Shown: positions 8,225 to 24,836 of the stretch, one piece after another | Layout of the letters: every line of letters begins with the position of its first letter | How positions within the stretch are numbered: the first letter of the stretch is position 1 | Virus record (IMG/VR): IMGVR_UViG_3300006101_000061 | Span: 1-24,836 of that record | Length of the DNA stretch: 24,836 nt | Reading direction: 5' to 3' (one strand) | Origin: a virus | Program-made: the position numbers and the translations under genes | The notes under the pieces: model-generated | What the model was told of the DNA's origin: nothing | What the model saw: the letters and a program-made list of their open reading frames with translations, nothing else | The model's database searches: none

Positions 8225-8250
8225 TCAGTAGTAGGATTACACATCCAAAC

Positions 8251-8275
8251 AAAAACCGCCCTAGGGCGGTTTTTT
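8251..8275. terminator. Bidirectional rho-independent terminator between converging genes
   Basis: The perfect palindrome ACCGCCCTAGGGCGGT is preceded by an A-run and followed by a run of six T. The stem is GC-rich and capped by CTAG, so the structure works on both strands. It lies between the 3' end of the capsid gene (+) and the 3' end of the endolysin gene (-), exactly where both transcripts need to stop. Confidence 0.92.
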
Positions 8276-8292
8276 GTTGACTTAAAAAAATA

Positions 8293-8928
8293 TTAACCTT
8301 GACTGTCGTCTGCTAGAATATTACAGAAAGCATTATACTTTGCAGTACGCTCATCTAAGCCAAGTGTACCACCATTAATACGTTTTGTCATTGTTAGCAT
8401 GTCATCTTGATCTGCTAATGGATTGAGATTGTTCTTGTGCCAGAACCAGCAGGCTGACCATAATGCGCCTTCTTTGGTCTCTAACCAATCTGGATTTTGT
8501 GCTAAAGAATCATTTTGATACAAATCCATAGAACATTGTGTGTAGTTAGATTTACCTGTGATTTGTACAATACCACGACCGCGATAACGATAACCATCTC
8601 CCGATTCCTCAGGTCCGTTACCCATACGCCCACCGTAAGCACGATTAGCAATCATTTCTGCATTGCCAGCATATTGAGCCGCAATCTCAGGTGGAAATAA
8701 ATGAGGCCATACACGGCCCAATGTTTCTGCACGGTAGTTTAAATTTTCATGAACCACTGTAAAGTCCATACTTTCGTGTGAGCATTGTGCTAAAAAAGCC
8801 GCCACACGTTGAATTGATGTTATACCAAATTGAGGTAATGTTGCCGCAAGCAATGGGAACCAGTCGCCGATTTCCTGGTTGCTTCTCAAGCATTCTTGCA
8901 GTTTGTTAGGGGTAAAATTAAAGTCCAT
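8293..8928 (-). CDS. GH19 chitinase-like endolysin
   Basis: Phage GH19 enzymes hydrolyse beta-1,4 bonds of peptidoglycan glycan strands to release progeny. The 211-residue single-domain product shows the family pattern: AFLAQCSHES with catalytic acid Glu52, then ENLNYRAETL with the second acid Glu61, the AYGGRMGNGPEESGDGYRYR segment, GRGIVQITGKSNY, and the C-terminal TKRINGG substrate-cleft motif. No signal peptide or membrane segment is visible, so a separate holin would be needed; none was found in the window. AAAGGAG precedes the ATG at a good distance on the minus strand, with GTTAAATA about 22 bases upstream of the start. T4's own lysozyme is GH24, so this is a different lysis enzyme. 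It is the only gene on this strand here. Confidence 0.93.
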   Translation of the reverse strand: MDFNFTPNKLQECLRSNQEIGDWFPLLAATLPQFGITSIQRVAAFLAQCSHESMDFTVVHENLNYRAETLGRVWPHLFPPEIAAQYAGNAEMIANRAYGGRMGNGPEESGDGYRYRGRGIVQITGKSNYTQCSMDLYQNDSLAQNPDWLETKEGALWSACWFWHKNNLNPLADQDDMLTMTKRINGGTLGLDERTAKYNAFCNILADDSQG

Positions 8929-8949
8929 TCGGGTCTCCTTTTGTATGCT

Positions 8950-8957
8950 TATTTAAC
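8950..8957 (-). promoter_or_regulatory. Late-promoter-like motif GTTAAATA for the endolysin
   Basis: On the minus strand, GTTAAATA lies about 22 bases before the endolysin ATG, ahead of its AAAGGAG site. It matches the motif at 4223-4230 exactly and stands 16 bases from a similar motif facing the other way, giving a compact divergent promoter pair. Confidence 0.5.
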
Positions 8958-8973
8958 TCTACAGGGTATCTGC

Positions 8974-8981
8974 GGTAAATA
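8974..8981 (+). promoter_or_regulatory. Late-promoter-like motif GGTAAATA for the 186-residue gene
   Basis: GGTAAATA resembles the T4 late core TATAAATA and is followed by TAC. It sits 75 bases before the ATG at 9057, so the transcript would carry a leader of about 65 bases containing the hairpins described separately. Confidence 0.5.
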
Positions 8982-8986
8982 ATACT

Positions 8987-9035
8987 GTTCAAAAGAACTT
9001 GTTGCGGTGCCAACCGCGCAGTGGGTAGAACCCAC
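8987..9035 (+). promoter_or_regulatory. Leader with three consecutive small hairpins
   Basis: Three perfect inverted repeats follow one another directly after the promoter-like motif: GTTC-AAAA-GAAC (8987-8998), GCGGT-GCCA-ACCGC (9004-9017), and GTGGGT-AGA-ACCCAC (9021-9035). They end 7 bases before AAGGAG (9043-9048), which itself is left unpaired. Such a 5' leader could stabilise the message or hold the ribosome site open. The repeats are read directly; the function is inferred. Confidence 0.6.
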
Positions 9036-9056
9036 ATACATTAAGGAGAAATTAAA

Positions 9057-9617
9057 ATGGCAAAAGGTTTAAAAACAGCAAAATATAATAATGAGCAATA
9101 CACTGGTGCGACAATCCAGATGGACTCACAGATTGGTCCTGCGGTAGTTATATGGGCAAATAGCACATCTACAACTACTTACACAGCATTTGGTGGTGTT
9201 GGTGGTAACCCAACAAACACAAGTCCTCGTACTATTCAAGTGCATTTCAAAGATGCAAGCGGTAATGCGTATAATGACGGATTTATCTTAGGACAACGCG
9301 GACGTAAACAGTTCGACGTTGAAAGTGTAGGCGGCGGCGCATCAACAAGAACACGTTGCACCCTTGTTGAAAGTGGCACTTTATCCGCTAAACAAATGTA
9401 TATTCTATTTGGATATAACGGTGGCGGTACTCAATACGCAACTCGTATATCAAATCGTTATGTATGGACAGCAGGAAGTACTGTACGTCTGCCATATACA
9501 TTAGGTTTAACCGCAGAAGTTCAATATGCCCAAGCAACATCTGGAATAGTTTTTCAAAACTATCCAGGACAAACCCAAACTTATCCAACTTTGGCTGTTG
9601 TTGAAGGACAAAACTAA
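9057..9617 (+). CDS. Beta-rich protein of unknown function, candidate capsid decoration or virion protein
   Basis: I do not recognise a family. The 186-residue product has no signal peptide or membrane span. It is rich in Thr, Gly, Ser, Tyr and Val in alternating patterns typical of beta structure (for example GPAVVIWANSTSTTTYTAFG and TVRLPYTLGLTAEVQYA). A GQRGRKQFDVESVGGGAS segment in the middle resembles an exposed loop. It has only one cysteine (near residue 102). The gene forms its own transcription unit: a late-promoter-like motif, a three-hairpin leader, a strong AAGGAG site and a perfect palindromic terminator 4 bases after its stop. That isolated, strong-looking unit next to the capsid gene suggests an abundant late protein such as a capsid decoration protein. 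That is inference from context only. Confidence 0.72.
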   Translation: MAKGLKTAKYNNEQYTGATIQMDSQIGPAVVIWANSTSTTTYTAFGGVGGNPTNTSPRTIQVHFKDASGNAYNDGFILGQRGRKQFDVESVGGGASTRTRCTLVESGTLSAKQMYILFGYNGGGTQYATRISNRYVWTAGSTVRLPYTLGLTAEVQYAQATSGIVFQNYPGQTQTYPTLAVVEGQN

Positions 9618-9621
9618 AAAT

Positions 9622-9647
9622 AAGGACTACCTAGGTAGTCCTTTTTT
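9622..9647 (+). terminator. Rho-independent terminator, perfect palindrome
   Basis: Nine-base arms AAGGACTAC and GTAGTCCTT flank CTAG with no mismatch, followed by a T-run to 9647. It starts 4 bases after the stop of the 186-residue gene. An upstream A-run makes it potentially active on both strands. It shares the CCTAGG centre with the terminator at 8251-8275. Confidence 0.92.
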
Positions 9648-9649
9648 GT

Positions 9650-9919
9650 ATGAAGACATTGGTAACAAGTTTAGACTGGGTAGCAATAGAATCCGAATTA
9701 AAAAGTTTGGAAAATACGCTACCCTTGTTTAAACATGATGTTATTCGTTTTATAAAAGCTATCCGAGAGGATGTAACAGCATTAAGCAAACTAGAAGTAG
9801 AATTTCGTAGAACACATTCAAAGCAGTTAGAAAGAGAATGTGCTTCTAAAGTAACAAAAATCAACGAACAACTGAAATTAGTCCATAAATTCCATCTTAT
9901 GAGCCTCCTAGCACAGTAG
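9650..9919 (+). CDS. Small helical protein of unknown function
   Basis: The 89-residue product is not recognised. It is predicted by eye to be almost all alpha helix: Leu/Ile/Val at heptad-like spacing with many Lys, Glu and Arg (SELKSLENTLPLFKHDVIRF, then KLEVEFRRTHSKQLEREC), so a small coiled-coil or helical-bundle protein is plausible. Its ATG comes only 2 bases after the T-run of the preceding terminator, and no ribosome site is visible in the usual window. Translation must be weak, leaderless, dependent on readthrough, or begin elsewhere (a TTG at 9659 is in frame but no better supported). The stop is 13 bases before the next gene. The reading frame is well conserved in character with neighbouring genes, so I keep it as a probable gene. 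Confidence 0.6.
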   Translation: MKTLVTSLDWVAIESELKSLENTLPLFKHDVIRFIKAIREDVTALSKLEVEFRRTHSKQLERECASKVTKINEQLKLVHKFHLMSLLAQ

Positions 9920-12810: not shown

Positions 12811-12867
12811 AAACCCGCAATGTAAGGTGGTTATCCGTGAAACTCGGTGTATAAGGAGCTCTATAGC

Positions 12868-15800
12868 ATGGCCGTAGGTCGCATAACAGGTCCGTTACTT
12901 GCAAGCAATTTGCTTCGTGATGGAATAGATATACAAGTACAAAATGGTTTACTGTACCTTGACGTAACCAACAATAAAGTCGGTATTAATACCCAGACTC
13001 CTGCTTATGACTTAGATGTCAACGCAACTATACACTCAATAAAACTAGTTGTTGATACTACATCAACATTGGGTCTTTTAACAGTTTCAAAGTCCGGAGT
13101 TGGAGCATCAGCAAGTGCAACTATTAGCACAGTAAGTGGTCCTCTAAATATTACTCCAGCCGCAAATCAAACAGTATTTGTCGGAACAAACACAACTATC
13201 GGTGGAAATTTACACGCACAAGGTAATATTACAGCCGATGGAAACATCATCTTAGGTAGCAATCAATTAGTAGATACTCTAGCACTTGGTGCAGAAATTA
13301 TCAGCAGTATAATTCCTAAGACAACAAACACATATAATATCGGTAGCACAACTAGTAACTGGGCTAACGGTTATTTTAACGGATTAGAAGTCGGTGGCTT
13401 GAATATTTCAGGCACAACTATTGCGGCCGCACAAGCAGGCGTTGGCATTAATATTGGAGCAACACCGGCGCAAGACATTAACGTAACTCCAATTACAAAT
13501 CCTTTAGTTAATATCAATGGTCCTATTAGAGTTTGGGGAGATCATCCTCTAGGTACTGCTCCTGTTGTTTCAAATGTTCTATATGTTACAATGGACGGAG
13601 ATGACACCAATGACGGTCGTGCGATGGATCCAAGTCGTGCTTGCCGTACTATTAGCGGTGCAACTAAATCACCATTTTATCAATCAGGTACAAGCATTAA
13701 AGTTTCGCCAGGCCGTTATCTAGAAAATAATCCTATCGAATTAAAACCTTATACTTCTGTTATCGGTAGTGACTTACGTACAACAGACGTTGAACCGATT
13801 AACAAGACTCGCGATTTATTCCACGTACAATCTGGTTGCTATGTTGCCCAGATGCGTTTATTAAATGGTCGTTCTGGTTTAATCCCAGGGGGCTACGGTG
13901 TTACTCCATACGGTTACAAGGTAGGTAATAATCGCGGTGCTTATGCAACTGCTTTCCCAACTAATGGAACTATAGATCTATATCACTCACCATACATACA
14001 AAACGTAAGTAATCAATCCGGTCCTTGGTTGTATGATGGTACCATGTTTATTCCTAATCAAACTGTACAGATTCCAGAAGCTGTCGGTACCGCAAGCTAT
14101 GCGGCAAACACAAATACTATCACTGTAACTCTTTCAACAGGTAGTTTGTATGTTGGCCAAGCAGTTAATTCAGGTCCACAAGATGAAGGTTATTTTGCGG
14201 CTCGTTCGCTATTGTTAGCAAATGAAGCGTTCATACAAGAACAAGTAGTTGCATGGACAAATCAAGAATACGGTGGCCCATTCCAATATAATTCAGCTAA
14301 ATGTACTCGAGACACTGGATTGATCATTGACGGCCTAGCACTAGATGTTCTATATCAAGGAAACAGCCAATCTGTTTTCTCTGGATTACAATACTGGAAT
14401 CAAAGCGGATATGTAGGATCTGTAGGCGGAGAAGTAACAACAACAACTGCGGCAATTAACTGGATCGCAAGCCTAACATCTGCGATTATTTTAGGCCAAT
14501 CAGTTCCATTCACTTATCAAAATACAATTACACAAACTGTAGTAACTAGCGTTGGTAACTCTGCCGATGTGACAGCAGTACAAAATGATTTTAAAGTTAT
14601 TACAAACATTTTAACAACAGGTACTACTGCTGTTACCGATAAAATTATTCCTAACGGAGCAGTTACTACAGCAACACATACTCTAAATGCTTACGCGGCA
14701 TTACAGGCCAACCGTTCTTTCTTACAAGCAGAAGCTATTGCTTGGGTAGAAGCTAATAAAACAATCGGCTTTACATACAATCAAGCCAAGTGCTATAGAG
14801 ACACTGGATTGATCGTTGATGCTATCGTCCAAGATATGTTGTTTGGAGGCACAAGCCAGTCAACATTTGCTGGTATTCAATACTACAATCAAACATCATC
14901 TGTTATTCCTGGAGAGCAAACAACAACCACTGCGGCAATTAGCTACATTAGTCAATTGGCACAACGTATTGTTGTTAATGATTTGACTGGTACACGTTAT
15001 CAAAGTACTGTAACACAAACAACAAGTCCAACACCTGGTACTTCTGCAGAAGCAAGTACAGTTGGTACAGACTTTAGTTTGATAGTACAAATTATAAACA
15101 GCGGAACAGCTGGTGTTACAGATTTAATCGTTCCAAACGGAATAGTTGCAAGTTCTAACGCAAACATTCAACACGCTTATGCGTTGTTGCAAGCTAATAA
15201 AAATTACATGGAAGCAGAAGCAACTGCCTTCGTTAACAGTACATATCCTAGCTTCAGCTACAGCGGAACCAAGTGTGCTAGAGATATCGGCTATATGGTT
15301 GATTCTGTTGCATTTGACTTATTGTACGGCGGCAATCGACAAGCAATTCAATCAGGTGTTTACTATTATGGTTATTCAGGCACTTCTAGTGCTATTCCAG
15401 GAGAACAAGCGCAAACTCTAAATGCTTATAATTTTATTAACAATCTAATTACAGATATTGTTACTGCTACTCCTATAGCAACACCATATCAATATACAGC
15501 AACACAGGTTACAAGCCTACCAGCAGGTACAACAAGCGAAGTAACAAGCCTACAGAATAATCTATCTGTTATTACTAGTATCATTACAGGTGGTCCGAGC
15601 TCAGCATCTGCACCAACAAGCATTCCACAAACAATAAGTGCAAATTCAAATGTTCTACATGCCGCGGCAATAGTTGAAGCTAACAGAACATTTATTCAAG
15701 CAGAAGTTATTGCTTACACAAATTCACAGTACGCAATTTATGATCAAGCCAAGTGTGCTCGCGATACAGGATTGATAGTTGATGCATTGGCATTTGATTT

Positions 15801-18800
15801 ATTATATCCAACTAAAGGCAACAGTCAATCAACATTTGCAGGTTTGCAATATTGGAATCAAGGCACTTATATCAAACCAATAGGCAGTGAAATTATCACT
15901 GCTACTAATGCTATATTGTTTGCTAGCAAGTTGGCTCAACAAATTGTAGTTGGCTCAACAGCAGGCCCGAGATATCAAAGTACTTTAACACAGATTACAA
16001 ACTTAACTCCTGCTACTTCTAATGAAGTTGCATTAGTTGCCGCAGACTTTAATACTGTTATTGGAATTTTAAATAACGGCACTGCTGGTGTTACAGAAAA
16101 TATTGTTCCTAACACAACAGCAAGCTCTACAGCAAGTATTGTTGCGGCTTACAATTTATTAAATGCGAATCGACAATATATCCAAGCAGAAACTGTTGCG
16201 TATGTTGATTCTATTCGCGGAACATTCCCATACAATCATTCTAAATGCGAGCGCGATACACGATTAGTAGTCGATGCTCTTGTACAAGATTTAATCTTCC
16301 AAGGTTCAAGTCAAACTGTATTTTCAGGTTTACAATACTGGAATCAAACTACAACTGCGATACCTGGAGAAGTTACAACAACTACAAACGCAATTAACTA
16401 TGTTTCTAGTCTAGCACAGAAAGTTATTGCTAACAACCAAACAGGTATACGTTATCAATCGACAGTAACACAAAACGTATCATTCACTCCTGGTACTTCA
16501 GCCGAACAGGCTCTAATTGGTACAGATTTTTCAGTAATTACAGATCTAATTACCAATGGTACAGCAGGTGTAAGCGATATGATAGTTCCAAACGGAATTA
16601 CACCTAGTTCAAATAACAATGTAACTAATGCTTATAATATTTTACAAGCAAACCGTGCATACCTAATTGCAGAAGGTGTTGCTTATGTTGAGTCAACCAA
16701 GACTAGCGGATTTACATACGATGGTACAAAATGCCAACGTGATATTGGCTACATGGTTGACTCAGTATCTTTTGATTTGTTGTATGGCGGTAATCGTCAA
16801 GCTATTCAATCAGGTGTTTACTATTTTGGATACTCAACAACATCAAGTGCTATTCCGGGAGAAATCACAGAAACTGTAGCAGGTTACGCACATATCGGTG
16901 GTATCATTTCCAGTATCATACAGGGATTTGCGATAGGAAGCTCATATCAGACATGGGTATCACAAACAACATCTGGATTGGGCGGAACTACTTCAGAAGT
17001 AAACTATGTACAGACTCTGATCAGTACTTTGGAAAACATCATTCAAAATGGTCCTAGCCAAGCTCCTGCAGAAAGTCCAATCAGTTTAACACGTAGTAAT
17101 AATCCTAACGTTCTAAATGCGGCAACATTATTACATAACAATAGAGAATTTATTACCCAAGAAGTTGTAGCATACATTGATGCAACATATAACACAAATA
17201 CATTCACATATAATGAATACAAGTGTAAGCGTGATACAGGCCTAATTGTTGATGCCCTATTACAAGATCTATATTTTGGCGGAACAAGTCAATCGACTTT
17301 TGCTGGCATCCAATATTGGAATCAAACTACAACAACTATTCCAGGTGAAGTTTCAACTACTACATCGGCTATTGCTTATGTTTCATCGTTGGCTCAACGT
17401 ATCGTAATGAATGATACGACCGGTCTTCGTTATTCAACATCTACACAAGTAACTAACCTAAGTGCCCCAGGCACAGCCGCAGAAGCAACTGTGGTTGCTA
17501 ATGAGTTTGCGACTATTGTAAACATTATAACAACCGGCACAACAGGTATTACTGATAAGATAATTCCAAACGGAATTACACCAAGTACAAAAGCCAATGT
17601 ATTAAATGCTTACACTTTATTAGAAGCTAATAAGAGCTACCTACAGGCAGAAGCAGTTGCGTACATTACAGCAACAGCACCTTCGTTCGTATATGATAAG
17701 TCAAAGTGTGCTAGAGATGTAGCCTATATGGTAGATTCTGTTGCGTTTGATTTGAAATGGGGCGGAAATCGTCAAGCTATACAATCAGGCACTTACTATT
17801 TTGGTTATAGTTTAACTTCTAGTGCTATTCCAAATGAAAGCACAGAAGTTTTAGATGCTTACACATACCTAAGTTCACTAGTTGGTAGTATTGTAACAGC
17901 AACACCGGTAGTTCCTTATCAAACTGCAATCAGCCAAGTGTCTAACTTACCTGTTGCAACAAATACAGAAGTTACTGCTCTGCAAAATAATGTTTCTTAT
18001 ATTAAAAATATTATTGCAAACGGTCCAAATGTTGCAAGTGCGCCTACATCAATTCCTTTAGCACCTAGTGCATCTTCTAGTGTATACAATGCTGTACAAT
18101 TATTAGAAGCTAATCGTGCATTTATACAAGCAGAACTAACAGCGTACATCAACAACAAATATAATGTATTCACATACAACGAAGATAAATGTTTCCGTGA
18201 CACAGGATATATTGTTGACAGTATTGCATTTGACTTGTTACACGGCGGTAATCGTCAAGCAACACAAGCCGGAGTTTACTACTACGGATTCTCAAATACA
18301 CAAAGCGCAATACCTGGAGAACAGGCAAACACAGTTGCGGCTTACGATAGGATCAAATCTATCATAGGTCCTATTATATTAGGACAACCTATCACTAAGT
18401 CAGCAGGTAATCCTAGCTCACAAGTTACTGGCTTACCAATTGCAACTCAATTACAAGTTACTTCTCTACAATCTCTTGTAGATGACATCACTAATATTAT
18501 TGACATTGGTCCAAGCGCGGCCGCAAGTGCTATACCAATTAGCTTAACAGCTAGTTCAGATGTTAATGCACAAAAAGCATTTAACTATCTAATGGCAAAC
18601 CGTTCGTTTATTGTAAACGAAGTTATTGCTTATGTTAACGCTCAGTACGGAACAGCATTTGAGTATGATGCAGTTAAATGTAAACGTGATATCGGTTACA
18701 TGATCGACTGTGTTAGCTTTGATTTGCTTCGCGGCGGTAATCGTCAAGCTATTCAAGCAGGTACACTATACTTTGGATATAACAGCAATTCGACTACTTT

Positions 18801-21800
18801 AATCAATGAATTAAAGCAAACTGTTATGGCCTACGAATACATGGCTACATTAGTAAATGCAGTTGTACAAAATCAGGCATTAAGCAATTTCTATCAATCC
18901 GATATTCCACAGACATTGATCGAAAATGCGCCATCGACTTCTGCTATTGCGGCAGAATTAGTAAGCGACATTTCCTTGATGACTCGAATTATCAGCAACG
19001 GTCCTTCAGAAGCTCCTGCTTTAATTCCAATTAGTTTAACAGAGTCGGCTGATGCTAACAGAGCTAATGCGTATGCTCTCTTAGAAGCTAATCGTTCATT
19101 TATTGTAGCAGAAATTATTGCGTTTGTCAATACACTACCTAATTTTGTTTACGATCAAGCCAAGTGTTATCGTGACGTGGGTATTATTGTCGAGAACCTA
19201 GCGTTTGATATTTCTTTTGGTGGAAACCAAAAAGCAGTTGAGTCTGGTTTAGGATATTACAAAGGCGTAACATCTGTAATCCAGGGAGAAACAACACAGA
19301 CTATTGGTGCGATCAATTACATCAATACTTTAGCAAATTATATTATTAATAATCAAGTTGCTCCAAATGTGATCGGTAGTACTGCTACACAATCACAGGT
19401 TATCAACACAGCACTAGTGGGCGGTGGGATAGCAAGCACAGCATTAGCTAATGGTGTTTCGATTATAACAGATATCATTCAGAATGGCCCAAGTGCGGCT
19501 CCAGACAGTTACATTGGTGCGGCAATTGACCCTGCATACATGAGTGCAGAAATATTATTGCAGTTAAACAGAAGCTTTATACAAGAAGAAGTTGTTTCTT
19601 ATGTCAACGCACAGTTCTTAACATTCCCATATGACAGTAAGAAATGTTCACGTGATACAGGATTGATAGTCGATGCCGTTGCATTCGATATGCTATATCC
19701 AAGTAATCCTTACAGTCAATCAACATTTGCCGCGATTCAATATTGGAGTCAGAACGGATATACCGGTGCTATCGAAAGCGAACTATCGACAACTACAAAT
19801 GCTATTTCTTATCTAAGTGGCCTAGCATCAAGGATCATTCTAAACGATACTACAGGTGCAAGATATCAAAATAACATCACACAAACAACTATTCCAGGTG
19901 CTCCGGCAACACAGAATGAAGTTGTTGCGCTAGGTGCAGAGTTTTCTATCATTACAGAAATTATCAACAATTATACAGTAACTGGATTACCAATTACTGA
20001 CGGTATTGTTCCTAACGGTAATGCAACAACTTCTATAACAATTAATAACGCTTACGCACTACTGCAAGCTAACAGACAGTATCTACAAGCAGAAACAGTT
20101 GCTTGGGTTGAAGCTAATAAGACAGCCGGCTTTAACTATGATAGAGCAACTTGTTTCCGTGATGCAGGATACATGATAGACTCTGTGTCTTTTGACTTGC
20201 TACATGGTGGTAACCGTCAAGCAGTTCAAAGTGGTGTTTACTATTACAGCTACACTAGTGGATCTACACAGATCTCTGGACAAACAACACAAACAGTTGC
20301 GGCATTTAATCACATTGCCACAGTTGCTGAAGCATTGATCAGAGGTCAAGTAGTTACTCCTACTACTGGTAATTTAGCGTTACCAGTTACTGGATTGCCA
20401 ACAGCTAGTGCGGCTGAAGTAACACAGATACAAAATATCTTCTCTAATATTACAAACTTAATCCAAAATGGTCCAAGCGTACTTGGTACTAAACAGCCAA
20501 TTGGTTTAACACCTAGCCAGAATATTAACGTACAACACGCATACAATATTTTAGAAGCTAATCGTGCATTCCTACAAGCTGAGATGGTGGCATGGGTTGA
20601 TTACACATATAACAGTAACGGATTCAATTACAATCAAGCACTATGCTATAGAGATACAGGATTTATTGTTGATGCAATTAGCCAAGACATATTACTAGGT
20701 GGAAATCATAAATCAATTGAAGCCGCTGTAACTTATTGGGTAGGTTCCGTAAGCGCCATTCCTGGAGAGATTACACAGACAATGGCCGCATACAATTACC
20801 TAGCACAAATAGCTAGCAACGTTGTATCTAACTCTACGTTTACACAGATTTCATACGCAACACAGATAGTAAATCCTTTCTACGCAAATGGTAACGAAGC
20901 TATTCCAAGAATTGAAAGTTTAGTTGCTATGATGAATAACATTATCGAAAATGGACCAAGTGCGGCTCCAGAAGGATACGACGGTTCGGGATTGTTCCCA
21001 GTGCGTTTTGATCCTATTATCGATAACGTAAACATTGCTCCACAAATTGCAAGCCTTTCAACAAATACAGATGGATCATATACTGTAGGATTGACACAGA
21101 ATACTGTGGGAGCAGGTACAAACTATACAATGTACTTTGGTCAGACCAGTGTGTATCCTGTGCAGACTAAAGATGTTCCAGAAAACTGGGCGCAACGTGC
21201 GATCGATCCGTTTGGTTCAATGGGCGGTAGCTTAGTCGACGGTGCAGTTATAAGTAGACGTTCACCGATCCAATCGTTCGTTTATGATGCGTATACTCAA
21301 ATTAACCAAGGTGGTGTTGGTATCAAGATTACCAACAACGGATATGCACAGCTAGTTTCTGTGTTTACGATTTTCTGTGGAACATCTGTTGTCACAGACA
21401 ACGGCGGTATTTGTTCTATTACTAACTCTAACGCCAACTTCGGTGATTACTGTCTAGTATCTAAGGGATACGGTTACTTAGATTTCTTTGGTGAAGTTTA
21501 TAACCCACCAAAACTACCGTACTATCCAAACGGTGTGTACCCAAGCAGTCAAGTAGTCGAAGTATATTGTCCAGATCCAAACAATCGTCCACACATTGGT
21601 CAGATCATGGAAGTTGTTGCTCCAGAAGGTTACACCAACAACCAAGGACTACCAGGCTTCTTATCAGCCAATCCAAATACAAGTACTATTACAACAGGTA
21701 CAGTGACAATCAACGGCATTGATAATTCAGGTATTGTTATTGGTCAAAATGTTTATATCATTGATCAATACGGAAATTATACAGATATCAACGGTACTTA

Positions 21801-24800
21801 TTATTGTGCAACAGGTACAACAGTTGCCGACGTTGGATTCCAAAGCCTTACATTAAGCAAAGCCTTACAAACAGGCGGTGGCGATGCCAATAATCCAACA
21901 TACTTCACGATTTATGTATCTGGTAATGCTTACTATACAGTTTTAAGTTCTGTATTAGCTCCAGATCCACTAACTCCTGGCCAATCATTTATTAGTGCCG
22001 CAGTTAACTCAACTGGAAACGATAATACTGCGCAAGAAGCACAGGCAATCACATTTATTTCTAATCTAGCAGATAGCGTTGTTGCAAACACATTGGCTAC
22101 AGCTTTACAAAACACAACTACACAAATTACTCAACTTTCGTTGACGGGCGGTGTGCAGGCTGTTCCAACAATGAATGGGCTGTTTGATCAGATATCTTAC
22201 ATCATTACTAATGGACTGAATTCTGCACCATCGAGTACTGTAACTTATGGAACTCCTGTGGCAGGTGCGGCTAGTGCGGCCTCATTATTATTACAAAATA
22301 AAGCGTTCTTCCAAGCAGAAACTCTTGCATACTTGAATAGTTTATATTTTGTTTATGATCACGCAACCTGCAGAAGAGATTTAGGTTATATATTAAATGG
22401 CTTTGCATATGATGTATTCTATCAAAGCAATTATCAATCACGCAAGTGTGGTAATGCTTATCAACGTGCGGCGAGTGCATACGTTTTACAAAACGAAATG
22501 ACACAAACTACTGATGCTATTTCACACATAGCGTCACTAGTAACTAACTTAGCCGGTATCAGCAACGTTGGTGAAGCTATTTCAAACGTGACACAAGGTG
22601 CTGTTAACATCAATAATATTATTGACAATGGTACAAGTTCACAGCCAGCTCTAGTACTTCCAGATTATCCCGGAATTGACCTAGGAGTCAGCAATGCTAA
22701 GACATTGATCCTTGATAATATGAACTTTATCAAAGCAGAGACTATTGCTTGGATCAACGCCAACTACACAGTATTCACATACGATCAAGCTAAATGCACA
22801 AGAGATTTAGGTTATATCCTAGATGCACTATCAGCAGATATCTTGACAGGTTCTAACTATCGTGCAGTTAAAGCAGGTCAAGCATACTACAGAGGTAATG
22901 CAAATAATGTTATTGACAATGAACTAACTGAGACAGTTGGTGCATTTAACTATATAAGCGGTCTAGTACAGGCATTACCAAACGTAGCCGCAAGCTCAAC
23001 AGCTACTACACAGGTAATTAATGATATTGTTACTATCAATAATATCGTTCAGAATGGGTTGAGCGTAAGCCCAACTGTAACTTATCCTTTACCAGCAGGC
23101 ATCGACAGCGGATTTGCTAGTGCTAGCCAACTGATACAAAACAACTTAGGATTTATCCAATCAGAAGTTGAAGGATATGTATTCAATACATTTGGTGGAT
23201 TCACATACAATCAAGCCAAGTGCTATCGTGACACGGGATTAATTGTTGATGCAGTTGCACAAGACATTTTATTTGGTGGTACAAGCCAATCAACTTTTGC
23301 CGGTATCCAATATTGGAATCAAACTACAACAACTATCCCTGGTGAAGTTACAACAACCACAAATGCAATCAACTACGTTGCAGGACTAGCACAAAAAGTT
23401 TTACTGAACGATACTACCGGCGTCCGCTATCAGTCGACAGTAACACAGGTTACAAATTTACCTGCGGCAACAAGTGCTGAACAAACTATAGTTTCTACAG
23501 ATTTTTCTGTAATTACAAACATCATTACAAACGGCACAGCCGGTGTAACAGATATCATTGTACCTAATGGTGTAACATCAAGCAGTAATGCTAATGTACA
23601 ACATGCTTATGCTATATTAGAAGCCAATAAGGCCTACTTACAAGCAGAAGGTAAAGCATACGTTGATGCTACTAAGACATCAGGATTCACTTATGACGGT
23701 ACTAAGTGTGTTCGCGATATTGGCTATATGGTTGATTCTGTTGCATTTGACTTATTGTACGGCGGAAACAGACAAGCAGTTCAAAGCGGAGTTTACTATT
23801 TTGGATATTCAAACACTTCAAGTGCTATTCCAAACGAAAGCGTACAAGTAACTCAAGCCTACAACTATATTAGCTCAATATTGCCAAGCATTATTGAAGG
23901 CACAGCGGTAACAACATATCAAAGTACTGTTACACAAGTTACAAACTTGTCAGCGGGTACTGTTGCTAATGCCAATACAGCTACATCGTTGGTTGCTAAT
24001 ATTGTTAATATTATCACTAATGGTCCAACTGTAGCCGCAAGTCCAACAAGTATCGGTCTAACACAAGGCGATGCCAACGCACAAAATACTGCGAAGATGT
24101 TGGAAGCTAACAGAACATTTATTCAAGCACAGACTATTGCTTATATCAATCAGTTGTATCCAAGTGGATTCACTTATGATAGATCAAAATGCAAACGCGA
24201 TGTTGGATTCTTAACACAAGCATTGATCTACGACTTGACGTATGGTGGTAACTCAATGAGCGTTGATGCCGCACTTCAATATTTTAATAGTGCAAACAAC
24301 AACGTCAGTGTAATTCCAAATGAAACACCGCAGACTGTTTCAGCTATTAACTATATCAATACACTTGCACAGAAAGTTATTAGAAATACTGCACCTACAA
24401 CAGTTTATACAACTGCTACACAGTATATCAATAACACATTGACATTAGGTGCCAATGCGGCAAATACGATTGCAACATTAGTAACTGATATGAGTAACAT
24501 TGTTCAAAACGGTCCAGGTGCGGCACCGTTGATCAGCGATATCAATATACCTGTGCCGGGTTATGCTAATCTAGCTAGCACAACTATCGAAGCAGACAAG
24601 TACACATTAGCTAGCGAAACTATTACTTGGATCAATCAAACTTATACTCAGTTTACTTACAATCAAGATACATGTAAGAGAGATATACAGTTTATTGTTG
24701 AAGGTATACTATATGATTTGATGTATGGTGGAAACTGGCAATCTGTTGATGCAGGTTTGCAATACTGGAAGGCAAATACTGTTGGCGAAACAAGTTTAAT

Positions 24801-24836
24801 ACCAAATGAAATACCTGAAACAGCAGGAGCAGTTAA
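12868..24836 (+). CDS. Giant repeat-containing virion surface protein, 3' end beyond the window
   Basis: I read this frame codon by codon from ATG 12868 to the edge and met no stop: 3,989 complete codons. Upstream in-frame stops at 12823 and 12838 and AAGGAG 9 bases before the ATG fix the start. Domains: residues 1-60 contain GPLLASNLLRDGIDIQ, YLDVTNNKVGINTQTP and YDLDVN, a pattern typical of marine T4-like fibre N-termini. Residues 232-430 start a pectate-lyase-like beta-helix (YVTMDGDDTNDGRAMDPSRA). Residues 439-2708 hold 14 tandem units of about 160-169 residues. Residues 2772-3030 look like the continuing beta-helix. Residues 3040 onward hold at least six more units. No signal peptide or enzyme motif is seen. 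It is probably a giant tail-fibre, collar or capsid surface protein in host contact; the exact role is inferred. Confidence 0.9.
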   Translation, partial: MAVGRITGPLLASNLLRDGIDIQVQNGLLYLDVTNNKVGINTQTPAYDLDVNATIHSIKLVVDTTSTLGLLTVSKSGVGASASATISTVSGPLNITPAANQTVFVGTNTTIGGNLHAQGNITADGNIILGSNQLVDTLALGAEIISSIIPKTTNTYNIGSTTSNWANGYFNGLEVGGLNISGTTIAAAQAGVGINIGATPAQDINVTPITNPLVNINGPIRVWGDHPLGTAPVVSNVLYVTMDGDDTNDGRAMDPSRACRTISGATKSPFYQSGTSIKVSPGRYLENNPIELKPYTSVIGSDLRTTDVEPINKTRDLFHVQSGCYVAQMRLLNGRSGLIPGGYGVTPYGYKVGNNRGAYATAFPTNGTIDLYHSPYIQNVSNQSGPWLYDGTMFIPNQTVQIPEAVGTASYAANTNTITVTLSTGSLYVGQAVNSGPQDEGYFAARSLLLANEAFIQEQVVAWTNQEYGGPFQYNSAKCTRDTGLIIDGLALDVLYQGNSQSVFSGLQYWNQSGYVGSVGGEVTTTTAAINWIASLTSAIILGQSVPFTYQNTITQTVVTSVGNSADVTAVQNDFKVITNILTTGTTAVTDKIIPNGAVTTATHTLNAYAALQANRSFLQAEAIAWVEANKTIGFTYNQAKCYRDTGLIVDAIVQDMLFGGTSQSTFAGIQYYNQTSSVIPGEQTTTTAAISYISQLAQRIVVNDLTGTRYQSTVTQTTSPTPGTSAEASTVGTDFSLIVQIINSGTAGVTDLIVPNGIVASSNANIQHAYALLQANKNYMEAEATAFVNSTYPSFSYSGTKCARDIGYMVDSVAFDLLYGGNRQAIQSGVYYYGYSGTSSAIPGEQAQTLNAYNFINNLITDIVTATPIATPYQYTATQVTSLPAGTTSEVTSLQNNLSVITSIITGGPSSASAPTSIPQTISANSNVLHAAAIVEANRTFIQAEVIAYTNSQYAIYDQAKCARDTGLIVDALAFDLLYPTKGNSQSTFAGLQYWNQGTYIKPIGSEIITATNAILFASKLAQQIVVGSTAGPRYQSTLTQITNLTPATSNEVALVAADFNTVIGILNNGTAGVTENIVPNTTASSTASIVAAYNLLNANRQYIQAETVAYVDSIRGTFPYNHSKCERDTRLVVDALVQDLIFQGSSQTVFSGLQYWNQTTTAIPGEVTTTTNAINYVSSLAQKVIANNQTGIRYQSTVTQNVSFTPGTSAEQALIGTDFSVITDLITNGTAGVSDMIVPNGITPSSNNNVTNAYNILQANRAYLIAEGVAYVESTKTSGFTYDGTKCQRDIGYMVDSVSFDLLYGGNRQAIQSGVYYFGYSTTSSAIPGEITETVAGYAHIGGIISSIIQGFAIGSSYQTWVSQTTSGLGGTTSEVNYVQTLISTLENIIQNGPSQAPAESPISLTRSNNPNVLNAATLLHNNREFITQEVVAYIDATYNTNTFTYNEYKCKRDTGLIVDALLQDLYFGGTSQSTFAGIQYWNQTTTTIPGEVSTTTSAIAYVSSLAQRIVMNDTTGLRYSTSTQVTNLSAPGTAAEATVVANEFATIVNIITTGTTGITDKIIPNGITPSTKANVLNAYTLLEANKSYLQAEAVAYITATAPSFVYDKSKCARDVAYMVDSVAFDLKWGGNRQAIQSGTYYFGYSLTSSAIPNESTEVLDAYTYLSSLVGSIVTATPVVPYQTAISQVSNLPVATNTEVTALQNNVSYIKNIIANGPNVASAPTSIPLAPSASSSVYNAVQLLEANRAFIQAELTAYINNKYNVFTYNEDKCFRDTGYIVDSIAFDLLHGGNRQATQAGVYYYGFSNTQSAIPGEQANTVAAYDRIKSIIGPIILGQPITKSAGNPSSQVTGLPIATQLQVTSLQSLVDDITNIIDIGPSAAASAIPISLTASSDVNAQKAFNYLMANRSFIVNEVIAYVNAQYGTAFEYDAVKCKRDIGYMIDCVSFDLLRGGNRQAIQAGTLYFGYNSNSTTLINELKQTVMAYEYMATLVNAVVQNQALSNFYQSDIPQTLIENAPSTSAIAAELVSDISLMTRIISNGPSEAPALIPISLTESADANRANAYALLEANRSFIVAEIIAFVNTLPNFVYDQAKCYRDVGIIVENLAFDISFGGNQKAVESGLGYYKGVTSVIQGETTQTIGAINYINTLANYIINNQVAPNVIGSTATQSQVINTALVGGGIASTALANGVSIITDIIQNGPSAAPDSYIGAAIDPAYMSAEILLQLNRSFIQEEVVSYVNAQFLTFPYDSKKCSRDTGLIVDAVAFDMLYPSNPYSQSTFAAIQYWSQNGYTGAIESELSTTTNAISYLSGLASRIILNDTTGARYQNNITQTTIPGAPATQNEVVALGAEFSIITEIINNYTVTGLPITDGIVPNGNATTSITINNAYALLQANRQYLQAETVAWVEANKTAGFNYDRATCFRDAGYMIDSVSFDLLHGGNRQAVQSGVYYYSYTSGSTQISGQTTQTVAAFNHIATVAEALIRGQVVTPTTGNLALPVTGLPTASAAEVTQIQNIFSNITNLIQNGPSVLGTKQPIGLTPSQNINVQHAYNILEANRAFLQAEMVAWVDYTYNSNGFNYNQALCYRDTGFIVDAISQDILLGGNHKSIEAAVTYWVGSVSAIPGEITQTMAAYNYLAQIASNVVSNSTFTQISYATQIVNPFYANGNEAIPRIESLVAMMNNIIENGPSAAPEGYDGSGLFPVRFDPIIDNVNIAPQIASLSTNTDGSYTVGLTQNTVGAGTNYTMYFGQTSVYPVQTKDVPENWAQRAIDPFGSMGGSLVDGAVISRRSPIQSFVYDAYTQINQGGVGIKITNNGYAQLVSVFTIFCGTSVVTDNGGICSITNSNANFGDYCLVSKGYGYLDFFGEVYNPPKLPYYPNGVYPSSQVVEVYCPDPNNRPHIGQIMEVVAPEGYTNNQGLPGFLSANPNTSTITTGTVTINGIDNSGIVIGQNVYIIDQYGNYTDINGTYYCATGTTVADVGFQSLTLSKALQTGGGDANNPTYFTIYVSGNAYYTVLSSVLAPDPLTPGQSFISAAVNSTGNDNTAQEAQAITFISNLADSVVANTLATALQNTTTQITQLSLTGGVQAVPTMNGLFDQISYIITNGLNSAPSSTVTYGTPVAGAASAASLLLQNKAFFQAETLAYLNSLYFVYDHATCRRDLGYILNGFAYDVFYQSNYQSRKCGNAYQRAASAYVLQNEMTQTTDAISHIASLVTNLAGISNVGEAISNVTQGAVNINNIIDNGTSSQPALVLPDYPGIDLGVSNAKTLILDNMNFIKAETIAWINANYTVFTYDQAKCTRDLGYILDALSADILTGSNYRAVKAGQAYYRGNANNVIDNELTETVGAFNYISGLVQALPNVAASSTATTQVINDIVTINNIVQNGLSVSPTVTYPLPAGIDSGFASASQLIQNNLGFIQSEVEGYVFNTFGGFTYNQAKCYRDTGLIVDAVAQDILFGGTSQSTFAGIQYWNQTTTTIPGEVTTTTNAINYVAGLAQKVLLNDTTGVRYQSTVTQVTNLPAATSAEQTIVSTDFSVITNIITNGTAGVTDIIVPNGVTSSSNANVQHAYAILEANKAYLQAEGKAYVDATKTSGFTYDGTKCVRDIGYMVDSVAFDLLYGGNRQAVQSGVYYFGYSNTSSAIPNESVQVTQAYNYISSILPSIIEGTAVTTYQSTVTQVTNLSAGTVANANTATSLVANIVNIITNGPTVAASPTSIGLTQGDANAQNTAKMLEANRTFIQAQTIAYINQLYPSGFTYDRSKCKRDVGFLTQALIYDLTYGGNSMSVDAALQYFNSANNNVSVIPNETPQTVSAINYINTLAQKVIRNTAPTTVYTTATQYINNTLTLGANAANTIATLVTDMSNIVQNGPGAAPLISDINIPVPGYANLASTTIEADKYTLASETITWINQTYTQFTYNQDTCKRDIQFIVEGILYDLMYGGNWQSVDAGLQYWKANTVGETSLIPNEIPETAGAV
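13561..14100 (+). other. N-terminal part of a beta-helix domain in the giant protein
   Basis: Residues 232-411 of the giant product include YVTMDGDDTNDGRAMDPSRA, then ASIKVSPGRY-like sequence (seen as TSIKVSPGRYLENNPIELKP), YTSVIGSDLRTTDVEPINKT and FHVQSGCYVAQMRLLNGRSG. This is the usual entry of right-handed parallel beta-helix (pectate-lyase-like) folds: 'G.D.NDG....P.RT' followed by 'I.V.PG.Y.E' and 'G'. It ends with SPYIQNVSNQSGPWLYDGTM and PNQTVQIPEAVGT, after which the repeat array begins. Confidence 0.7.
14182..20990 (+). repeat. Coding tandem array 1: 14 units of 480-507 bases
   Basis: Each unit runs: helix 'LLEANRxFIQAExIAYV', then 'FxYDxxKCxRDxG', 'VDxxxxDLLxGG', a variable box, 'IPGE', 'AxxYIxxLxxxI', 'YQSTVTQ', 'NG'. 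The Lys-Cys (or x-Cys) anchor codons start at 14299, 14788, 15271, 15751, 16243, 16729, 17221, 17704, 18187, 18676, 19162, 19642, 20149 and 20641. Spacings are 489, 483, 480, 492, 486, 492, 483, 483, 489, 486, 480, 507 and 492 bases, all multiples of three. Type A boxes read SQSTFAGIQYWNQ or close (units 1, 2, 4, 5, 7, 12); type B read GGNRQAIQSGVYY or close (units 3, 6, 8, 9, 10, 13); units 11 and 14 are divergent. Confidence 0.93.
21181..21960 (+). other. Second beta-helix-like and linker segment between the repeat arrays
   Basis: Residues 2772-3031 contain WAQRAIDPFGSMGGSLVDGA, VISRRSPIQSFVYDAYTQIN, GGVGIKITNNGYAQLVSVFT, then GICSITNSNANFGDYCLVSK and GYLDFFGEVYNPP. The short beta-strand/Gly/Asn rhythm and 'G..I.I.N.GYA.LVS.F' are beta-helix rungs. 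No Cys-x-Arg-Asp unit occurs between 20650 and 22366. The rest (to about 3031) is Thr/Gly/Ile-rich beta sequence. It reads as the continuation of the domain begun at 13561. Confidence 0.65.
21985..24836 (+). repeat. Coding tandem array 2: half unit plus at least six units, continues past the edge
   Basis: A half unit (second half only: EAQAITFISNLADSVVANTL to YIITNGLNSAPSS) starts near 21985. Full units have anchors at 22366, 22792, 23218, 23704, 24187 and 24670. Spacings are 426, 426, 486, 483 and 483 bases. The first two units are about 142 residues, around 20 shorter than the others, and lack the 'YQSTVTQ' linker. Units at 23218 (type A) and 23704 (type B) closely match units 7 and 3 of array 1. 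The last two are divergent (GGNSMSVDAALQYFN, GGNWQSVDAGLQYWK). Confidence 0.92.

Follow-up and report, generated by a model that had tools for sequence, protein, structure and literature searches.

A divergent freshwater-2 RNA as the probable 5′ leader of a late messenger in a T4-type phage

The window, a stretch of 24,836 nucleotides from a viral record (IMGVR_UViG_3300006101_000061, positions 1 to 24,836), carries the head-gene module of a T4-type phage, with portal, protease, scaffold, and major capsid protein (PHROG 138) genes. The major capsid protein gene is followed by an endolysin gene on the minus strand and then by a gene for a 186-aa protein on the plus strand, and the interval between the latter two holds two divergent TAAATA motifs and a 70-nt leader (Table 1). 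A near-perfect inverted repeat (8246-8279) between the stop codons of the capsid and endolysin genes is probably a two-way terminator common to both. The endolysin gene, which separates the capsid gene from the 186-aa gene, is inverted, and among 80 capsid-gene loci a matching endolysin was found at that place only in L004, L005, and L028. Farther downstream, an open reading frame of at least 3,996 aa with many similar repeats (12847-24836) runs off the end of the window.

An earlier note on this DNA had described two facing late-like motifs and, behind one of them, three perfect hairpins that leave a ribosome site exposed. The motifs are 16 bases apart, as stated, when taken as 8-base motifs, but they are divergent and point away from each other. 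The three inverted repeats are exact and lie where they had been placed: GTTC-AAAA-GAAC (8987-8998), GCGGT-GCCA-ACCGC (9004-9017), and GTGGG-TAGAA-CCCAC (9021-9035). The predicted fold contains all three hairpins (P1, P2, and P3) and leaves AAGGAG free. Pairing by homology extends P2 outward (9000-9002 with 9018-9020, U9003 being bulged) and gives P3 a 4-bp stem, GUGG/CCAC, with a 7-nt loop, GUAGAAC. The leader folds at -21.2 kcal/mol (z-score, -1.53), and 17 of 200 shuffled sequences are equally stable. Folding energy alone is weak evidence for structure; the claim that such order exceeds chance therefore holds because the hairpin array is conserved in relatives and not because of its folding energy.

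Table 1. Features of the leader region in the window, and sites of two other RNAs in three related contigs (numbered by contig)
Feature	Position	Strand	Basis or remark
Endolysin gene (PHROG 181), reading away from the leader	8293..8928	-	
Divergent late-type motif of the endolysin gene	8950..8957 (core TAAATA, 8955-8950)	-	Motif search
T4-type late promoter motif of the 186-aa gene, GGTAAATA	8974..8981 (core TAAATA, 8976-8981)	+	Motif search; relatives
Freshwater-2 RNA (RF02980)	8985..9059	+	All 84 model positions matched; 44.0 bits (cut-off, 49.9)
Predicted transcript start, G, 11 nt past the first T of TAAATA	8987	+	Inferred
Hairpin P1, GUUC-AAAA-GAAC	8987..8998	+	Exact repeat; predicted fold
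Match of independent model R1	8995-9059	+	48.0 bits; E = 4.4e-10
Hairpin P2, UGU[U]GCGG-UGCCAA-CCGCGCA	9000..9020	+	Fold; homology; covariation
Hairpin P3, GUGG-GUAGAAC-CCAC, loop fitting near-invariant NUAGAAC	9021..9035	+	Homology; covariation
Shine-Dalgarno sequence AAGGAG	9043..9048	+	Unpaired in predicted fold
Presumed controlled gene, 186 aa (MAKGLKTAKY...), divergent MGRP family member (a family of T4-type jumbo phages)	9057..9617 (ATG at 9057)	+	
Intrinsic terminator, immediately past the stop codon of the 186-aa gene	9622..9650	+	
Glutamine aptamer/manA RNA, L066	5233-5280, 5427-5631		
Glutamine aptamer/manA RNA, L082	5666-5713, 5949-6158		
Glutamine aptamer/manA RNA, L102	2812-2861, 2328-2532	-	

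The leader is almost certainly a divergent freshwater-2 RNA (Rfam RF02980) at the 5′ end of a late mRNA. The earlier note had missed this apparent membership in a known orphan RNA family that stands ahead of one phage gene family. Rfam lists freshwater-2 as type Cis-reg with its function unknown, and no paper naming it was found within the library searched; its phage late-leader setting and its partner gene family are worked out in the present analysis. The match is full length (positions 1 to 84 of 84) and runs through three successive hairpins to the Shine-Dalgarno sequence and AUG, although the alignment misfits some P1 and P2 pairs of the window owing to indels. The window copy, at 44.0 bits, stays below the cut-off of 49.9 bits, which is a reporting threshold and not a biological feature, but a sibling leader 95% identical to it (L004, 52.2 bits), a leader of the same type (L208, 52.4 bits), and most other relatives (reaching 78 bits; 16 of 17 in one further scan) pass, and it is therefore filed as a divergent member. 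The window shares with the family the order of the three hairpins, the match ending at the AUG, the UAGAAC loop, and the ribosome site, and differs from it in an inserted U and a G-C for A-U in P2, a short P1, and a score 6 bits under the cut-off. The P2 core, P3 stem, and UAGAAC loop of freshwater-2 are also present in the window under an independent covariance model, and the genomic setting of clear members, with a late motif upstream and an MGRP-family gene downstream, is shared. The remaining low-scoring Rfam matches in this region were taken as chance.

A search with the capsid protein yielded 80 related viral contigs. Sequences similar to the leader were found in several of these, some ahead of a different-looking downstream gene, and more than 50 loci proved to have the element when TAGAAC was sought ahead of ribosome sites. 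Alignment A1 comprises 43 relatives, without the window and its two nearest relatives, and contains two helices, P2 and P3, in which 98.3% of the cells are paired. Cells changed on both sides number 91, compared with 24 in shuffles, and the covariation score is 0.502, compared with 0.099 in shuffles and at most 0.062 for slid pairings, although the shuffle tests are inflated by the relatedness of the sequences. The P2/P3 structure is nonetheless secure because the slid control is low and P3 has many pair types (GC, AU, CG, and UA). In four leaders of the window's own clade, an A-U pair has become G-C in P2 and two double changes have occurred in P3. Compensatory changes in relatives, whose lack the earlier note had named as grounds for giving up its reading, are thus abundant. 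Covariance model R1, built from A1 without the window, finds the window with 48.0 bits (E = 4.4e-10). That these are chance hairpins in an ordinary leader, as the folding z-score of only -1.53 might suggest, is hardly credible in view of this independent match and of the fixed genomic place, and is refuted by the covariation.

The three hairpins are unequal, with P2 and P3 carrying the conserved recognition features. The P3 loop, NUAGAAC, is near-invariant (a few members have UAAAAC or UAGAAA), as are the UUAUGC/GCGUA strands of P2/P3, while the P3 stem varies freely around its fixed loop. P1 is kept in place but not in sequence: 69 distinct complementary arm pairs were found, with a mean energy of -6.5 compared with -2.5 in shuffles, and there is too little room for it in 22 of 131 leaders. 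Because P2 and P3 covary whereas P1 is variable in sequence and missing in some relatives, we regard P2 and P3 as the conserved module and P1 as a seemingly dispensable accessory. These observations also bear on a passive role, in which the hairpins, binding no particular ligand, would retard decay and hold the ribosome site open. The predicted start coincides with P1, P1 stays a hairpin while its sequence varies, and the Shine-Dalgarno sequence of the window is open, all of which would suit a 5′ stabilizer or an aid to ribosome loading. Stability, however, does not need the near-invariant loop and strands, the P3 stem changes freely, and the 5′-terminal hairpin is the very part for which those 22 leaders have no room, so that we consider a purely passive role rather unlikely.

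The conserved strands could alternatively encode a leader peptide that starts at the AUG within UUAUGC of P2 and stops at the UAG of the P3 loop. In 49 of 126 leaders, translation from this AUG would stop at the loop UAG, but the AUG falls into all three frames relative to the main gene (43/31/52), the loop varies in length, and neither the window nor L028 has the AUG. With frames not conserved, a leader peptide is not supported as a general feature and is very improbable. A pseudoknot joining the 5′ end to the P3 loop was likewise rejected as a general feature, since the stem length of 3.45 shows no enrichment over the 3.39 expected; such pairing is possible in a subset with GUUC or UCUAG, the window included. 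An anti-Shine-Dalgarno hairpin was seen in 18 of 26 long linkers (9 expected), but the excess is driven by a few related clades, the window is without it, and we did not retain it. In L145, L147, L161, L048, and L191 and their relatives, CUUCU or UUUCU between P3 and AGGAG could pair with the Shine-Dalgarno sequence.

The place of the element is as regular as its structure. TAAATA lies 45 to 71 nt before the TAGAAC loop in 56 of 57 loci, compared with a background of 0.76 per kb, and in a wider set, itself a sample, 131 of 133 distinct leaders are closely preceded by it. The dinucleotide GT is enriched in relatives 10 to 11 nt past the first base of TAAATA; the start predicted for the window follows from this enrichment and from T4 late-promoter geometry. 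An intrinsic terminator precedes the promoter in 22 of 50 loci and follows the gene in 19 of 41, compared with 8 of 255 random stretches. Given these flanking terminators, that of the window directly past the stop codon, the late unit would be insulated, with the RNA making up the entire 5′ leader of the gene. To judge from the sequence, the 186-aa gene is a single-gene late unit with a short mRNA that is transcribed from a T4-type late promoter and runs to a dedicated terminator. A late motif upstream and one gene family downstream therefore make the RNA the likely 5′ leader of a dedicated late mRNA. The late-type promoter, ordered leader structure, open Shine-Dalgarno sequence, and cis role for the 186-aa gene, all proposed in the earlier note, are supported.

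Among the matches listed, the freshwater-2 element was seen only in T4-type viral contigs. Viral pattern scan totals are a sample (at least 121 matches); a gene starting with MGRP lies directly downstream in 116 of the 121 listed, and the remaining 5 have similar starts (MGNA, MARS, MARL, MARG, and MGRS). The window gene starts with MAKG and is homologous to the MGRP family in its central domain. The family usually adjoins the capsid gene in large T4-type water phages. L026, L029, and L039 have no RNA, and no MGRP gene was found in 4 kb of downstream sequence. One strong copy per contig was found in 10 of 10 phage contigs of up to 328 kb. L173 has two tandem freshwater-2 RNAs (483-514 and 1665-1696), each of which has a separate late motif and MGRP gene, and the second tandem MGRP genes of L028 and L078 are without their own RNA. 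No true copy was found in 84,980 bacterial and archaeal species genomes; the only host-genome match was rejected as chance, lying inside a coding gene that resembles methionine aminopeptidase.

Cultured phages searched with the RNA model gave no credible match, and no match came from searching cultured phages, at the nucleotide and protein levels, with the leader and with the 186-aa protein. Three cultured jumbo phages, Phosso, Atu_ph07, and phi30-3, have MGRP genes at other places in the genome, directly behind TAAATA, with short leaders in which the element is absent, and 121Q, GAP32, and XbC2 have no match to the MGRP gene profile. The MGRP-family proteins of the three carriers, namely, gp466 and gp498 of Atu_ph07 (L227), gp429 of Phosso (L228), and RVBP17_2900 of phi30-3 (L229), are unannotated. 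The gene occurs without the RNA; among the matches listed, no copy of the RNA lacked the gene. This is as expected if one lineage of the gene had acquired a cis element.

The 186-aa protein has no PHROG or Pfam family match. The AlphaFold core (residues 60 to 150, outside which the predicted structure is of low confidence) has no significant PDB match by Foldseek and gives weak matches to SH3-like barrels (Z of 4.4); a similarity to ribosomal protein bL27 was too weak to use. The protein may be a virion surface protein, as suggested by the neighboring capsid gene in many relatives, the fixed basic N terminus, and the variable outer part.

We lean towards the view that the freshwater-2 leader is a translational control element recognized through P2 and P3. 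The two hairpins, with the UUAUGC/GCGUA strands and the NUAGAAC loop, would form a ligand recognition site upstream of an open Shine-Dalgarno sequence, the RNA acting in cis on translation, and ligand binding would tune ribosome loading and thereby secure a suitable level or timing of gene expression; the main task of P1, at the 5′ end, would be to shield the transcript. The P3 loop lies 2 to 16 nt upstream of the Shine-Dalgarno sequence in relatives, and P3 is read as a recognition hairpin because its stem varies freely around a fixed loop near that sequence. The most likely ligand would be a phage protein, either the gene product or a head protein; the N-terminal peptide alone probably does not account for binding, since L208, with a changed protein N terminus, keeps a canonical RNA. 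The predicted fold leaves the Shine-Dalgarno sequence open, so that the RNA by itself shows no off state, and a strand that could pair with it occurs only in a minority of relatives. That the gene does without this RNA in cultured relatives counts against the proposed mechanism.

A phage operator of this general kind would have precedents in the gene 43 and gene 32 leaders of T4 and RB69 (PMC3014915). The gene 43 operator, bound by gp43, resembles the window leader in placing a hairpin with a conserved loop before a T4-type ribosome site (PMC3014915), but it belongs to a DNA polymerase mRNA, has the loop UAAC, consists of a single hairpin about 40 bases upstream, and has a known binder; the likeness is one of design, and no sequence homology is claimed. 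The T4 gene 32 leader, the site of gp32 autoregulation, is likewise structured and present in some but not all relatives of its gene (PMC3014915); it is a pseudoknot, whereas the general test for pairing of the 5′ end with the P3 loop was negative in the window family.

The strong conservation of loop and strands would also be expected of a riboswitch in which P2 and P3 bind a small molecule and control late-gene translation. Phage glutamine riboswitches have been described (PMC9004378), and in three relatives (L066, L082, and L102) glutamine riboswitch aptamers (RF01739) show the same layout as freshwater-2, with TAAATA, the RNA 11 to 12 nt after it, a Shine-Dalgarno sequence, and an ORF, although that RNA is of a different family and the ORF is a different, short gene. 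At about 64 to 84 nt, with two small conserved hairpins, no clear expression platform, and a controlled gene without a known metabolic link, freshwater-2 is improbable as a riboswitch. We accordingly rank a protein-binding translational element first, a passive stabilizer second, and a riboswitch third. The more specific proposal of a ligand-gated translational switch confined to late capsid-linked genes of T4-type phages is offered tentatively. If it is true, a phage protein or metabolite on P2/P3 would set the amount of a virion-type protein, and freshwater-2 would represent a class of leader-borne regulators of late genes that is absent from cultured relatives.

Control of late messengers is usually thought to end at the promoter. 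The present leaders, the glutamine riboswitch included, suggest that these phages use structured leaders on late messengers. The orphan freshwater-2 RNA can now be assigned a host element, together with a promoter and a partner gene, and relatives that have the gene without the RNA serve as natural controls; with these in place, its function becomes directly testable. In L066, L082, and L102, three Rfam cis-regulatory RNAs, namely, the glutamine aptamer, a manA RNA, and that of the freshwater-2 unit, follow one another in tandem downstream of the capsid gene.
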